Source of the DNA: Fusobacterium varium
Lineage (GTDB): Bacteria > Fusobacteriota > Fusobacteriia > Fusobacteriales > Fusobacteriaceae
Direction of reading: 5' to 3'
Assembly: GCA_900637705.1 (NCBI GenBank)
Contig: LR134390.1
Span: 1,922,001 to 1,986,000 of the forward strand
DNA: 64,000 nt
Shown: positions 33,698 to 38,911 of the stretch, one piece after another
Numbering within the stretch: the first letter of the stretch is position 1
How the letters are laid out: every line of letters starts with the position of its first letter
The notes under the pieces: generated by a model
What the model saw: the letters and a program-made list of their open reading frames with translations, nothing else
What the model was told of the DNA's origin: nothing
Database searches by the model: none
Position numbers and translations under genes: made by a program

Positions 33698-33791
33698 AAT
33701 ATAATTGTTTGTTGCTTTTTTTATTATTTTTTAGTAAAATGAAACGGAAATATAATAAACAAAAATTTGAATTTAGATAGGGGTGAAAAAT

Positions 33792-36031
33792 TTGGTTAAA
33801 AAAAATTTAGTTATAGTTGAATCCCCAGCTAAAGCTAAAACAATAGAAAAAATTTTAGGAAAAAAATTCCATGTAGTTGCTTCTTTTGGTCATGTTAGGG
33901 ATCTTCCTAAAAGTAAACTTGGTGTAGATGTAGATAATAACTTCCAACCTTCTTATTCTACTATAAAAGGAAAAGGAGATGTAATAAAAAATTTAAAAGA
34001 TCTTGCAAAAAAATCTGACAAAATCTATCTTGCTTCCGACCCAGATAGAGAAGGAGAGGCTATTGCTTGGCATATAGCTCATGCTTTAAAGCTTGATGAA
34101 AAGGACAGCAATAGAATAGAATTTAATGAAATAACTGAAACAGCTATTAAAGATTCTATATCTCATGCCAGAAAAATTGATATGGACAAAGTAAATGCTC
34201 AACAAGCTAGAAGAATACTTGATAGATTAGTGGGATATGGTATAAGCTCGCTTTTATGGAAAAGCATTTCTTCCAATACTTCTGCTGGAAGAGTTCAATC
34301 AGTTGCTCTAAAACTTATCTGTGATTTAGAAGATGAAATAAAAAAATTCACTCCAGTTAAATTCTGGGAAGTAAAAGGTGAGTTTTTAAACAAATTAAAA
34401 CTTTCTTTATATAGAGTAGACAATAAAAAATTTGATAAACTCACTGATGAAAAAATTGTTAAAGAAATAAAAAAAATAGAAAAAAAAGATTTTACTGTAA
34501 TTGAAGCTAAGGTTTCTAAGAAAAGTAAAAATTCTCCATTACCTCTAAAAACTAGTACTCTCCAACAGTTAGCTTCATCTTATTTGGGATTTTCAGCTTC
34601 AAAAACTATGAGAGTAGCTCAAGGGTTATATGAAGGTATTGATATAGATGGAAATCATAAAGGACTTATAACTTATATGAGAACTGACTCTACAAGAATA
34701 TCTGAAGATGCCATAGAAATGGCAAAGAAATATATTCTTGAAAATTTTGGAAAAGAATATCTTGGAGTACAAAAAACTGTTAAAAACAAACAAAAAATAC
34801 AAGATGCTCATGAAGCTATCAGACCTACTGATATTGAATTGACTCCTGATAATCTAAAAAATACTTTAGACAAAGATCAATATAAATTGTATAAACTTAT
34901 TTGGGACAGATTCCTTATATCACAACTTGCTCCTATGAAATATGAGCAGTTTGAAATAATATGCAATTATGAAAAATTTGATTTTAGAGGAACTATCAAT
35001 AAAATAATTTTTGATGGATATTATAAAATATTTAAAGAGGAGGAGGAGCTCCCTCTTGGAGAATTTCCAACTATAAAAGAAGGGGATATGCTTAAATTAG
35101 AAAAACTTCTTATTAAAGAAGATTTTACTAAGCCACCTTCAAGATTTACAGAATCTTCATTAGTTAAAAAATTAGAAGCTGAAGGAATTGGAAGACCTTC
35201 TACATATGCTACCATCATTGAAACTTTGAAAAAAGGGAATATGTTGTAGTTGAGGGAAAAAGTTTCAGTCCTACTGCATTGGGATATGAAATAAAAGATA
35301 AACTTGATGAAAATTTCCCTAATATAATGAATGTTAAATTTACTGCTGAACTTGAAAATCAGCTCGACAAAGTTGCTGAAGGAGAAAAAGATTGGATAAA
35401 TCTTCTTTCAGTATTCTATAAAGAGCTTAAGCATTATATAGATAAATTTAAAATCACTGTTGAAGAAGAAATGTCAAGAATAATTGAATCTGATGTTCCA
35501 TGCCCTTGTGGAAAAGGGAATATGATTTTAAAAACTGGTAGATTTGGAAGATATCTTGCATGTCCTAATGAATCTGATGACTGCAAGGAAAAAATATCTC
35601 TTAAAGGGGTTGAAATACCTGCCGAAGATATAAAAAATGGAAAAATATTTGTAAAAGAAAAAGTAGAAGAAATAATGAAAGCTAAAAAAGGAAGACCTAC
35701 TGATGTTTATACTGATAATGGTACCATGTATCTTTTAAAATTTGGTAGATTTGGAAGTTATCTAGAAAGTGAAAAATTTGCTGAAGATAATATTAGAACA
35801 CCTCTTCCTACTGAAATCAGAAAAATGCTTGCTAATAATCAAATAGTAGAAAAAGATGGAGTAGTACAACTTAAAGCTGAATTGAAAAAGATTACTGATG
35901 AAGAAGAAAAAATATTAAAAGCAGCTGGTAAATGCAAAAAATGTGGAAGACCATTTAAAATAAGCAGAGGTAGATGGGGAAAATTCCTTGCTTGTACAGG
36001 TTATCCTGAATGTAAAAATATAAAAAAATAG
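33792..36031 (+). CDS. topA: DNA topoisomerase I, one frameshift
   Basis: This is a type IA topoisomerase. The TOPRIM domain has VIVESPAKAKTIEK (about residues 7-20) and SDPDREGEAIAWH (about 82-94). The active-site Tyr is in YMRTDSTRIS (about 296-305). Two C-terminal zinc ribbons are present (CPCGKGN...C and CKKCGRP...C). The start is TTG 33792 after AGGGGTGAAAAAT. A GTG at 33783 is part of that ribosome site. The frame breaks after IETLKK. The A6 run at about 35228-35233 needs one more A to read LKKREYVVVEGKSFSP. The repaired length is about 747 residues. The gene is essential in most bacteria, which argues for a sequence error. Confidence 0.96.
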
Positions 36032-36048: not shown

Positions 36049-36069
36049 AACTCACCCTTAGGGGTGAGC
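36049..36069. other. Hairpin between topA and trmFO
   Basis: CTCACCC, loop TTA, GGGGTGAG forms a GC-rich stem. It is not followed by a clear T tract on the plus strand, so it may be an mRNA-stabilising or processing element rather than a terminator. Confidence 0.5.
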
Positions 36070-36105
36070 TCTTTGAGTTTAGAAATAAATTTTAGAGGAG
36101 AAATA

Positions 36106-37419
36106 ATGAATAGTAAAGAAGTTATCATAGTTGGAGCTGGATTAGCTGGTTGTGAGGCTGCATACCAACTTGCCAAAAGGGGAATAAAAGTAAAACTTTA
36201 TGAAATGAAAGCTAAAAAAATGACAGAAGCACATAAAAAAGATTATTTTGCTGAACTTGTGTGTAGTAATTCTCTAGGTGGAGATAATCTTGCTAATGCT
36301 TCTGGGCTTATGAAAGAAGAATTGCGAAAACTTGATTCTCTCCTTATAAAAATAGCTGACAAAAACCGAGTTCCAGCTGGTCAGGCTCTTGCCGTAGATA
36401 GAGATGGCTTTTCAGTAGAAGTAACTGAATATTTAAGAAATATGGAAAATATAGAAATAATTGATGAAGAATTTACTGAAATACCTGAAGATAAAATAAT
36501 CCTTATTGCTTCTGGCCCTCTTACATCTGAAGTATTATCTAAAAAAATAGCTAAGCTTACTCATAGTGAACATCTTTATTTCTATGATGCTGCTGCACCT
36601 ATTGTTACTTTAGAATCTATTAATATGGAAAAAGCTTATCGTCAATCTCGTTATGGAAAGGGAGAAGGAGAATATATAAACTGCCCAATGAACAAAGAAG
36701 AATACTATACTTTTTACAATGCTTTGATCACAGCTGAAAGAGTTCCACTAAAAACTTTTGAAGAGGAAAAACTTTTTGAAGCATGTATGCCTGTTGAAAG
36801 AATAGCTATGACAGGTGAAAGAACTCTTGTATTTGGTCCATTAAAACCTAAAGGACTTATTAATCCTAAGACTGATAAAATGGATTATGCTGTTGTTCAA
36901 CTCAGGCAAGACGATAAAGATGGAAAATTATATAATATAGTAGGATTCCAAACTAATTTAAAATGGGGAGAACAAAAAAGGGTCTTTTCTATGATTCCTG
37001 GACTTGAAAATGCTGAGTTTGTAAGATATGGCGTTATGCATAGAAATACATTCATAGATTCATCAAAATTATTAGATGAAACATTAAAATTAAAAGCAAG
37101 TGACAATATATATTTTGCTGGACAGATAACAGGAAGTGAAGGTTATGTTTCTTCTATATCTACTGGAGCAATGGCTGCCATTAATATAGCACATAGATTA
37201 TTAGGAAAATCTCCTTTTATCTTAGATGACAGAAGTGCTATTGGTGCAATAATAAAATATATTACTGAAGAAAAGAAAAATTTTCAACCTATGGGACCTA
37301 ATTTTGGAATTATAAGATCATTAGATGGAATAAGAATAAAAGATAAAAAAGAGAGATACAACACTATTTCAAAAATAGCTTTAGAATATTTGGAAAATAA
37401 AATAGGTGAACTGGCATAG
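36106..37419 (+). CDS. trmFO: FAD-dependent tRNA (uracil-54-C5) methyltransferase TrmFO
   Basis: It uses methylenetetrahydrofolate to methylate U54 in the tRNA T loop. The dinucleotide-binding motif is VGAGLAGCEAAYQLAKRG (about residues 7-24). The family stretch CSNSLGGDNLANASGLMKEE lies near 51 and TGSEGYVSSISTGAMA near 340. The start is placed at 36106, with AGAGGAGAAATA before ATGAATAGT. A GTG 14 codons upstream lies in the hairpin. The length of 437 residues is typical. It follows topA as in Bacillus (topA-gid). Confidence 0.96.
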   Translation: MNSKEVIIVGAGLAGCEAAYQLAKRGIKVKLYEMKAKKMTEAHKKDYFAELVCSNSLGGDNLANASGLMKEELRKLDSLLIKIADKNRVPAGQALAVDRDGFSVEVTEYLRNMENIEIIDEEFTEIPEDKIILIASGPLTSEVLSKKIAKLTHSEHLYFYDAAAPIVTLESINMEKAYRQSRYGKGEGEYINCPMNKEEYYTFYNALITAERVPLKTFEEEKLFEACMPVERIAMTGERTLVFGPLKPKGLINPKTDKMDYAVVQLRQDDKDGKLYNIVGFQTNLKWGEQKRVFSMIPGLENAEFVRYGVMHRNTFIDSSKLLDETLKLKASDNIYFAGQITGSEGYVSSISTGAMAAINIAHRLLGKSPFILDDRSAIGAIIKYITEEKKNFQPMGPNFGIIRSLDGIRIKDKKERYNTISKIALEYLENKIGELA

Positions 37420-37477: not shown

Positions 37478-38362
37478 ATGGAAAATATAGAAAAAAACAT
37501 AAAAGATTTTTTATATTTTGCTGAATTTGGAGAAAATAAAAGTCTTAATACTATTAAGTCTCTGAAAAAAGATCTTTCTCAGCTCAGTGAATATTTAAAA
37601 AATATAGAAAAAATTGAAGATATTTCAAAAATAACTCCTGTTATGCTCAGAGGATTTATTATAGAACTTCAAAAAAATGAAGTGGGAAAAAGATCAATTA
37701 ACAGAAAACTTTCTTCTTTAAGATCTTTCTTTAAATATTTAATAAAAAATAACCTTATTAAAAATAATCCTATTGAAATAATTAATTCTCCTTCATTTGA
37801 AGCAGAAAAACCAGATATACTTACTTTAGAAGAAATAAATAAACTTAGAGAAGTTATTAATATAGATAATACTAATGGTTTAAGAGATAGACTTATCCTT
37901 GAATTACTCTATTCAAGTGGAATTACTTCTACTGAAATGCTTGGTATTGGAGAACAAGTCTTTGATCTCGATAATAGAACTCTTTTAGTTTCTAATGGAA
38001 AAACAAACAGAACCGTTTTTTTCAGCCAAAGGACTAGAGAATATTTCAAAAGATATATTGAAGCAAAAAAAGAAAAATATAAAGAAAAATATAATTCAAG
38101 CATTCTTTTTGTAAATGGTTCTGGAAACAGATTAAGTGATAGGTCATTAAGAAGAATTGTTGACAGATATGCTGCAAAAGCTGGAATTACTCGAGAAATA
38201 AGTCCTTATTCTTTTAGACACACTTTTGCTGTACATCTTTTAGCTAAAGGTATGGGGCTTAATTTTTTGCAGGAACTTATGGGGCATGTTACAATAGAAA
38301 GTACAAAAATATATCAAGAAATTCTACATAAAATACCATTTGACTTTACAAATCAAAGTTAG
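37478..38362 (+). CDS. Tyrosine recombinase homologue (XerC/CodV position) with altered active site
   Basis: The protein has 294 residues: an N-terminal SAM-like DNA-binding domain (about 1-90) and a C-terminal catalytic fold. The usual Arg of GLR-x-SE is replaced (SGITSTEML, about residues 146-154). The HxxRH box reads YSFRH, so its first His is Tyr. The Lys (NGKTNR), the Arg and His of FRHTFAVHLL, LMGHVTIESTKIY and the Tyr nucleophile remain. It lies between trmFO and hslV, exactly where Bacillus has codV. Either it is catalytically impaired or it keeps only a DNA-binding role. The frame is intact. Confidence 0.85.
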   Translation: MENIEKNIKDFLYFAEFGENKSLNTIKSLKKDLSQLSEYLKNIEKIEDISKITPVMLRGFIIELQKNEVGKRSINRKLSSLRSFFKYLIKNNLIKNNPIEIINSPSFEAEKPDILTLEEINKLREVINIDNTNGLRDRLILELLYSSGITSTEMLGIGEQVFDLDNRTLLVSNGKTNRTVFFSQRTREYFKRYIEAKKEKYKEKYNSSILFVNGSGNRLSDRSLRRIVDRYAAKAGITREISPYSFRHTFAVHLLAKGMGLNFLQELMGHVTIESTKIYQEILHKIPFDFTNQS

Positions 38363-38377
38363 AGGAGTTGAAACATT

Positions 38378-38911
38378 ATGATAAGAGCTACTACAATTAT
38401 AGCAGTAAAAAAAGATGGAAAAGTTGCTGTTGCTGGTGATGGGCAAGTCACTTTTGGAGAAGTAGTATTCAAAAGCAATGCAAAAAAAATACGTAAAATA
38501 GGTAATTATGAAGTTTTAGCCGGATTTGCTGGAGCTGCTGCTGATGCTTTCGCATTGATGGATAAATTTGAAAACAAATTAGATGAATTTGGGGGTAATT
38601 TAAAAAAAGCCTCAGTTGAACTTGCTAAAGATTGGAGAACAGATAAGGCTTTGAGAGTTTTAGATGCTATGCTTATTGTGGCAGATAAAAATATGATATT
38701 AATTCTTTCAGGTAACGGAGATGTTATAGAGCCTGATGGTGATGTTGCAGCTATTGGTAGTGGAGGAAATTATGCTTATGCTGCTGCCAGAGCTCTTGTA
38801 AGAAATAATAAAGAAATGTCTGCTGAAGAAATAGCAGTTGAAGCTATGAATATAGCTGGTGAAATGTGTATTTATACAAATTTAAATATAGTTTATGATG
38901 TATTAAGTTAA
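38378..38911 (+). CDS. hslV: HslV (ClpQ) proteasome-like peptidase
   Basis: This is the threonine peptidase of the HslUV ATP-dependent protease. After the short propeptide MIRA comes the N-terminal-nucleophile sequence [20 protein letters not shown], with the catalytic Thr at residue 5. [14 protein letters not shown] and the C-terminal helix are conserved. It is intact at 177 residues, with AGAGGAGTTGAAAC before the ATG. The ATPase gene hslU, which normally follows, is absent here. The next gene is yqeH. Confidence 0.95.

Follow-up and report, generated by a model that had tools for sequence, protein, structure and literature searches.

The gene in the xerC (codV) slot of a 64,000-nucleotide stretch of Fusobacterium varium DNA (hereafter, the window), which is part of a single 3.30-Mb contig, encodes a Xer-type recombinase that lacks the first catalytic arginine (Arg I), and the same loss is found in most readable XerC copies of the Fusobacteriaceae. 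From genome comparisons across the phylum, we consider it probable (roughly 0.7) that a third recombinase, for which we coined the label XerF in the present analysis, has together with its own dif replaced the XerCD/FtsK/dif system in this family, and that the window gene has been kept for a Xer protein that binds DNA but probably no longer recombines it. XerCD, dif, and FtsK are generally taken to be the near-universal means of resolving chromosome dimers in bacteria whose chromosomes are circular; in this family a full replacement may be readable genome by genome, with FtsK lost, XerD disarmed, XerC disarmed later, and a third recombinase and a terminus site in place.

Arg I in XerC of F. 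varium and its relatives

The window gene order is trmFO-xerC-hslV, and the xerC frame is open (Table 1). Pfam recognized Phage_integrase (116.9 bits) and Phage_int_SAM_1 (55.6 bits) domains in the window protein, which scored under the NCBIfam cut-offs for both XerC and XerD (219.2 vs. 335.15 bits for TIGR02224, the XerC equivalog). An AlphaFold2 model computed from the window protein and 12 relatives had a pLDDT of 89.6 and a pTM of 0.63, and its Foldseek matches included XerA (the best), XerH, and XerD. Based on its sequence, the gene can be assigned as the XerC orthologue, with which it shares the orthologous trmFO-xerC-hslV slot and common descent.

An earlier note on this DNA had proposed that the catalytic Arg I is replaced and that the first His of the HxxRH box is a Tyr. 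Both proposals were borne out when residues were placed by alignment to E. coli XerD and XerC and to 12 other Xer proteins, with Thr150 falling at XerD Arg148 and Tyr244 at XerD His244, so the window protein does not carry the complete catalytic R-K-H-R-H and Tyr set of a working XerC. Arg247, His248, His270, and Tyr279, which the note had described as retained, are all present, but its claim that the Lys remains stands only for Lys175, which lies one place off the exact column. The hairpin of the window protein is shorter than that of XerD, and the automatic alignment gives an Asn in the catalytic Lys column with Lys175 one place on. In the AlphaFold2 model, Lys175 sits in the turn of the beta-hairpin, between strands E168-173 and E176-181; it would be the catalytic Lys only with a one-position shift.

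Table 1. Features of the xerC locus, in window coordinates.
Feature	Position	Strand	Remarks and basis
xerC/codV-slot gene	37478..38362	+	294 aa; Xer-type tyrosine recombinase fold without Arg I; ORF list, Pfam, AlphaFold2, Foldseek
trmFO, upstream neighbor marking the slot	36064..37419	+	ORF as listed; true start may be internal
hslV, downstream neighbor	38378..38911	+	15 bp past the xerC stop
Codon 150, ACT (Thr), at the XerD Arg148 position (catalytic Arg I)	37925..37927	+	alignments, codon reading
Codons 175-178 (K-T-N-R), hairpin Lys175 and Arg178	38000..38011	+	AlphaFold2 model, clade alignment
Codons 244-248 (Y-S-F-R-H), HxxRH box	38207..38221	+	His to Tyr; Arg247 and His248 retained; alignments, codon reading
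Codon 244, TAT (Tyr), at the XerD His244 position	38207..38209	+	alignments, codon reading
Codon 270, His of the LGH/MGH box	38285..38287	+	retained; His in 36/42 Arg-less clade rows
Codon 279, Tyr nucleophile	38312..38314	+	retained; Tyr in 42/42 Arg-less clade rows

The phylum set comprised 98 genomes, 61 of Fusobacteriaceae (f1) and, for comparison, 37 of other families (f2-f6), of which we take f4 to be Leptotrichiaceae; all but one of the 98 had a match to the window protein. XerC residues were counted in 91 of these genomes (58 Fusobacteriaceae rows and 33 from f2-f6), and two copies of genus g6 (L199 and L203) were assigned to XerC by their sequence and trmFO neighbor. Left uncounted were G097, in which the frame is split by a stop, G025, in which it is split over two contig ends, G086, and G015, G056, G064, and G089, for which no XerC-type match was listed. 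Residue 150 was Thr in 39, Lys in 3, and Arg in 16 of the 58 readable family copies, a recurrence which makes Thr150 neither chance nor sequencing error. Arg I is thus missing in 42 of the 58 family copies, and it is present in all 33 rows from f2-f6. In a maximum-likelihood tree of 93 rows, two from E. coli included, every Arg-less row fell on one side of one branch (support 90/97), so a single loss of Arg I suffices; by parsimony on this tree, Lys at residue 150 arose twice. The Arg-less clade covers genera g1-g6, g11, and g12.

Within the 42 Arg-less rows, Arg247, His248, and Tyr279 are invariant and position 175 is always Lys or Arg, while Arg178 is kept in 41 and His270 in 36; the g4 and g6 copies also lack His270. 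The first-His position is occupied by Tyr (24 rows), His (11), Phe (6), or Ile (1). Since this His was lost less uniformly than Arg I and persists in some Arg-less copies, its change is the weaker half of the point made in the earlier note. By that note's own account, an alignment in which nearby residues supply the Arg and His would speak against its reading. When Arg-less and Arg-bearing family rows were aligned, no Arg or Lys was newly conserved alongside the loss, and just one column besides residue 150, Tyr/Phe column 39, switched between the two groups at the thresholds used. A substitute gained with the loss was therefore not seen, although Arg178 and Arg230, which were conserved already before it, could still take over.

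The locus is well kept in the family, with trmFO adjoining xerC in 56 of 58 loci and hslV lying inside the fetched flank in 39 of 58, and the family XerC and XerD copies that were read have intact frames. A search of the genome_contigs collection with the window protein returned 12 related loci, three of them from Fusobacteriaceae. Pairwise dN/dS, calculated by the Nei-Gojobori method, was 0.047-0.127 for xerC in eleven Arg-less pairs differing in protein (one further pair had no protein change), 0.065-0.149 for family xerD, 0.010-0.074 for xerF, and 0.050-0.136 for xerC and xerD in four pairs of family f4, all of these values being approximate because many synonymous distances were high. The open 294-aa frame and the range for the Arg-less pairs agree with the earlier proposal that the window gene is intact and under selection.

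XerD, FtsK, and the third recombinase

The second Xer gene of the F. varium genome sits between recN and era. In its product, the XerD homologue, Arg I is replaced by Lys, His244 by Asn, and Arg247 by Lys, and the LGH box is absent, such that no catalytic XerD partner for XerC was found in this genome. XerD counts covered 88 of the 98 genomes, the ten without an XerD-type row being G008, G015, G016, G017, G018, G033, G061, G073, G075, and G077; the three g4 genomes were among those in which no XerD-type row was found. Neither Arg I (Lys 23, Leu 15, Ser 10, Gln 6) nor His270 was present in any of 54 family copies. The Tyr was read in 16 of 54, a count that is approximate because the degenerate copies align only loosely at their C termini. 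XerD copies from f2-f6 carried Arg I in 33 of 34 cases and the Tyr in 31 of 34. The XerD slot is nevertheless held in the family, next to recN in 54 of 54 loci and era in 53 of 54.

Separately, XerD is eroding in genus g21 of f4 (G068, L193; G074, L192; G080, L190), and G073, G075, and G077 of the same genus have no listed XerD match; XerC is intact and the FtsK gamma domain is kept in both sets of genomes. This is a possible second, independent decay.

The FtsK gamma domain was detected in all 37 genomes of f2-f6 compared with 1 of 61 Fusobacteriaceae. The FtsK motor was likewise found in 37 of 37 genomes of f2-f6 (E<=1e-40), and 4 of 61 family genomes had any motor match above the cut-off. 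Only one of these, in a 1639-aa frame of G002, was strong, and it is presumably another FtsK/HerA-type protein. In the F. varium genome, domain and motor searches found no FtsK with a gamma domain. The lone gamma match in the family (G044:C43:5491-5601) scored 31.0 bits against a cut-off of 30.6, lies in a 375-aa frame, and could be a remnant of a lost FtsK.

XerF is a 333-aa protein whose gene adjoins a pseudouridine-synthase gene in the F. varium genome. Of the 61 family genomes, 55 have an orthologue (E<=1e-61), among them every one of the 44 that are at least 95% complete, and the six genomes without a match are drafts that are 62-93% complete. Few matches reached E<=1e-15 in other families; none of these was stronger than 1e-21, and they map to XerC/XerD genes. 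Residues were read in 50 of the 55 family copies, and the R-K-H-R-H-Y set is intact in 48 of these, the other two being cut by contig ends. Like the enzymes of single-recombinase Xer/dif systems, XerF thus combines an intact catalytic set with a chromosomal gene common to the lineage; its closest solved chains were XerA (59 bits) and an XerC-like archaeal protein (57 bits). The earlier suggestion that a working Xer exists elsewhere in the genome therefore holds insofar as XerF has an intact catalytic set, but not for an intact XerC/XerD pair, as XerD is degenerate and FtsK is gone.

Searches of phage and plasmid collections returned just distant XerF relatives, apart from a 2.1-Mb Fusobacterium vincentii record. 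This record (NZ_CP084075.1, L443), deposited under the plasmid name pSB055A, has the look of a chromosome and contains both xerF and a perfect palindrome of the terminus type. A conserved stretch ending ATAGGACTTTT was also observed just upstream of the xerF start codon in many genera (L215-L264), at times in the variants AAAAGTCCTAT or AAAAGTCCGAT and repeated downstream; it is possibly an operator for xerF control.

The palindrome beside xerF

The flanks of xerF contain a 28-bp palindrome of 11+6+11 bases, which in F. varium reads ACCACATATAA-TTAACA-TTATATGTGGT. A strict pattern search found this palindrome in 21 of 98 genomes, one copy each, all of them in the family and none among the 37 other genomes, whereas the reversed-pattern control matched in three genomes. 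All of the strict-pattern palindromes lie 3′ of xerF, 78-561 bp from the end of the XerF match. With a looser model, a site was found in 35 of 41 testable xerF flanks compared with 7.2% of order-1 Markov shuffles, 9 of the 50 xerF loci having been omitted because the flank was shorter than 300 bp. Two of these 35 sites, those of G041 and G053, lie 810-920 bp away, have arms of 7-8 of 11, and resemble chance matches, and no site was found within 1 kb of XerF in the remaining 6 of 41 testable loci, both g6 genomes included. The outer arms of the palindrome co-vary, and the inner parts are ATATAA/TTATAT. A search for the canonical dif core, using a pattern built from dif sequences, matched 6 of 98 genomes and was uninformative, since its reversed control matched 9.

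Cumulative GC skew over 400 kb of F. varium centered on the site peaks at 1,422,475, 118 bp from the palindrome (1,422,332-1,422,357). The peak was 122 bp from the site in G027 and 8 kb from it in G020 (200 kb each, centered on the site). Gene orientation can shift the local peak in such site-centered stretches, but the sign change is broad. The features expected of a single-recombinase Xer/dif site, namely a 28-31 bp palindrome near the recombinase gene and a location at the replication terminus (here the GC-skew peak in three genomes), were therefore both found.

Inverted, A+T-rich boxes (AATTATT-N2/3-AATAATT) lie on both sides of the palindrome, and similar boxes were seen in other genera. 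The box motif had only two matches in 400 kb of F. varium, G000:C1:1422313 and 1422385, both at the site. Because one Markov shuffle of the same 400 kb likewise gave two matches, it is the position of the boxes rather than their number that is notable.

The palindrome also coincides with a junction between phage and host sequence. In viral contig L307 (5,884 bp), genes of a microvirus (major capsid PHROG 514, pilot protein, and replication protein) adjoin xerF and a portion of the neighboring pseudouridine-synthase gene, both from a Fusobacterium closely related to G029. The host side is identical at 237 of 252 columns over 250 bases, up to the palindrome; past it, identity falls to 36 of 53 columns, which correspond to the shared flanking box, and then to background. 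This one metagenome contig is consistent with a natural recombination product in which the prophage-host junction lies at the palindrome. According to passages of PMC7062461, gokushoviruses integrate at dif via host XerCD in E. coli. Five related free microvirus records, three of which are partial genomes, did not contain the palindrome, and no other contig of the viral_contigs collection carried the prophage's capsid gene or XerF. A looser viral scan (84 stretches) yielded no family-type arms with a TTAACA-type center among L336-L414, many of which are variants of one unrelated sequence.

What the disarmed XerC may do

We propose that the XerCD/FtsK-gamma machine was dismantled in Fusobacteriaceae, with the XerD catalytic residues lost in all family members read and XerC Arg I lost later and once, an order that we infer from the distribution of the losses. 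XerF alone would act on the palindrome as its dif, resolving chromosome dimers without FtsK. Because selection still acts on the XerC and XerD homologues, they would keep a recombination-free role, most likely sequence-specific DNA binding at the terminus or at other chromosomal sites.

That Tyr279, Arg247, His248, and the hairpin Lys have stayed conserved counts against a purely DNA-binding role, and since the Tyr, Arg II, and hairpin Lys are invariant, some residual active-site function of the window protein is possible. Despite the Thr in place of Arg I, the protein could even still be an enzyme, through either partial chemistry (slow cleavage, nicking, or a covalent complex) or another Arg as a substitute, a reading that we regard as unlikely but by no means far-fetched. 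Tyr279, Arg247, and His248, with K/R175, persisted in 42 of 42 copies and Arg178 in 41 of 42 after the loss of Arg I, while the family XerD lost the same residues, and only 19 of 298 E. coli XerD positions are more conserved in the Arg-less clade than Arg177 (41/42). There is also precedent, in that passages of PMC8138268 describe a CTnDOT integrase that lacks Arg I and uses a downstream Arg and an IntDes subgroup with a shifted Arg I and a Tyr for the first His. However, no basic residue was fixed together with the Arg I loss, residue 150 alone switches apart from the Phe/Tyr column, and genera g4 and g6 have lost His270 as well. It seems distinctly unlikely that the Arg I-less XerC still nicks terminus DNA or attaches to it covalently while XerF and a palindromic dif resolve the family's chromosomes without FtsK. 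Such a complex would account for the invariant Tyr nucleophile, Arg II, and Lys, and the window protein might then, for example, unload SMC while anchored to DNA or act as a switch of XerF. If true, this XerC would represent tyrosine-recombinase chemistry without the first arginine.

Instead, the window protein might, alone or together with the XerD remnant, be an accessory partner of XerF that binds the flanking boxes or the palindrome and replaces FtsK control. Although the placement of both box matches in 400 kb at the site and the similar boxes of other genera are in line with such a partner, the boxes point no more to XerC than they do to XerF or a nucleoid protein, their number is matched in the shuffle, and a palindromic site needs no heterodimer, so we consider this role unlikely. 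The replacement of XerCD by XerF could itself be questioned on the grounds that a terminator hairpin might also account for a palindrome after a gene. That the palindrome is a mere xerF transcription terminator, with dimers being resolved otherwise or not at all, would account for its 3′ position and the co-variation of its outer arms, but is very unlikely given one copy per genome at the skew peak, the fixed 11+6+11 geometry with ATATAA/TTATAT, the flanking boxes, and the prophage junction. We give hardly any credence to the window gene being a decaying leftover, kept by chance or by its operon position only. The stepwise catalytic erosion, the long branches of the g6 and g11 copies, and the lack of an XerD-type row in three g4 genomes would suit a relic, but the low dN/dS (no tested family pair exceeded 0.15 for either gene) does not support one, and the intact frames, well-folded model, and invariant Tyr and Arg speak against it too.

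XerF-mediated resolution beside a disarmed XerC, the reading we favor, has partial parallels in known systems. The window protein resembles the XerC (CodV) of two-recombinase systems in its fold, length, N-terminal SAM-like domain, slot by hslV, Tyr, Arg II, His, and hairpin Lys, but differs in its missing Arg I, Tyr in place of the first His, sub-cut-off score, degenerate XerD partner, and absent FtsK. Known single-recombinase Xer systems include XerS/difSL, XerH/difH, XerA, and XerL, and XerA works independently of FtsK, according to passages of PMC5357621 and PMC9765430, a review among them. XerF is like these in being one intact recombinase of ~333 aa with a palindrome beside its gene and at the terminus and no FtsK; it differs in its protein and site sequence and in that the genomes carrying it also retain a degenerate xerC and a degenerate xerD. 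In Lactobacillus helveticus, XerS coexists with xerC and xerD, as reported in part of PMC3025954. The CTnDOT and IntDes enzymes are likewise naturally occurring tyrosine recombinases that have no Arg I at the customary position, and IntDes also shares the Tyr for the first His, but both are integrases with an arm-binding domain, and no relocated Arg was identified in the window protein.

Streptococci keep a non-catalytic XerD-like protein beside the single recombinase XerS. This is similarly a non-catalytic Xer paralogue where a single recombinase works, whereas both XerC and XerD are affected here. Against NCBIfam PRK02436, which we take to be the model of the streptococcal XerD-like protein, the window protein scored 19.4 bits, below the cut-off of 178. 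The XerD that unloads SMC in Bacillus subtilis is a normal XerD, in contrast with the disarmed window protein. As cited in passages of PMC12322038 and PMC8357415, this SMC unloader is a Xer protein with a non-recombination role at the terminus, and it is the best precedent for a role that the XerC and XerD homologues may have retained. An SMC hinge was found in the F. varium genome.

In searches of the open-access literature, we recognized no description of a single-recombinase Xer system, or of Xer, dif, or FtsK loss, in Fusobacteriaceae, which is no proof of absence. XerF and the palindrome would provide a defined enzyme and site for testing in Fusobacterium and might also be how the small phages of this genus integrate, and two Xer proteins that are disarmed yet under selection would give a handle on Xer roles besides recombination.

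The F. varium genome also encodes two tyrosine recombinases that consist of the catalytic domain only, one of 198 aa (L006:1453-2049, minus strand) and one of 189 aa (L007:1381-1950, plus strand), and one of these adjoins an HU-like gene. Within the window, the frame of the neighboring topA breaks near an A6G3 run (35240-35280), where the ORF at 33783-35249 ends and the rest lies in another frame (ORF 35279-36031). As topA is normally essential, this break may be an assembly indel.
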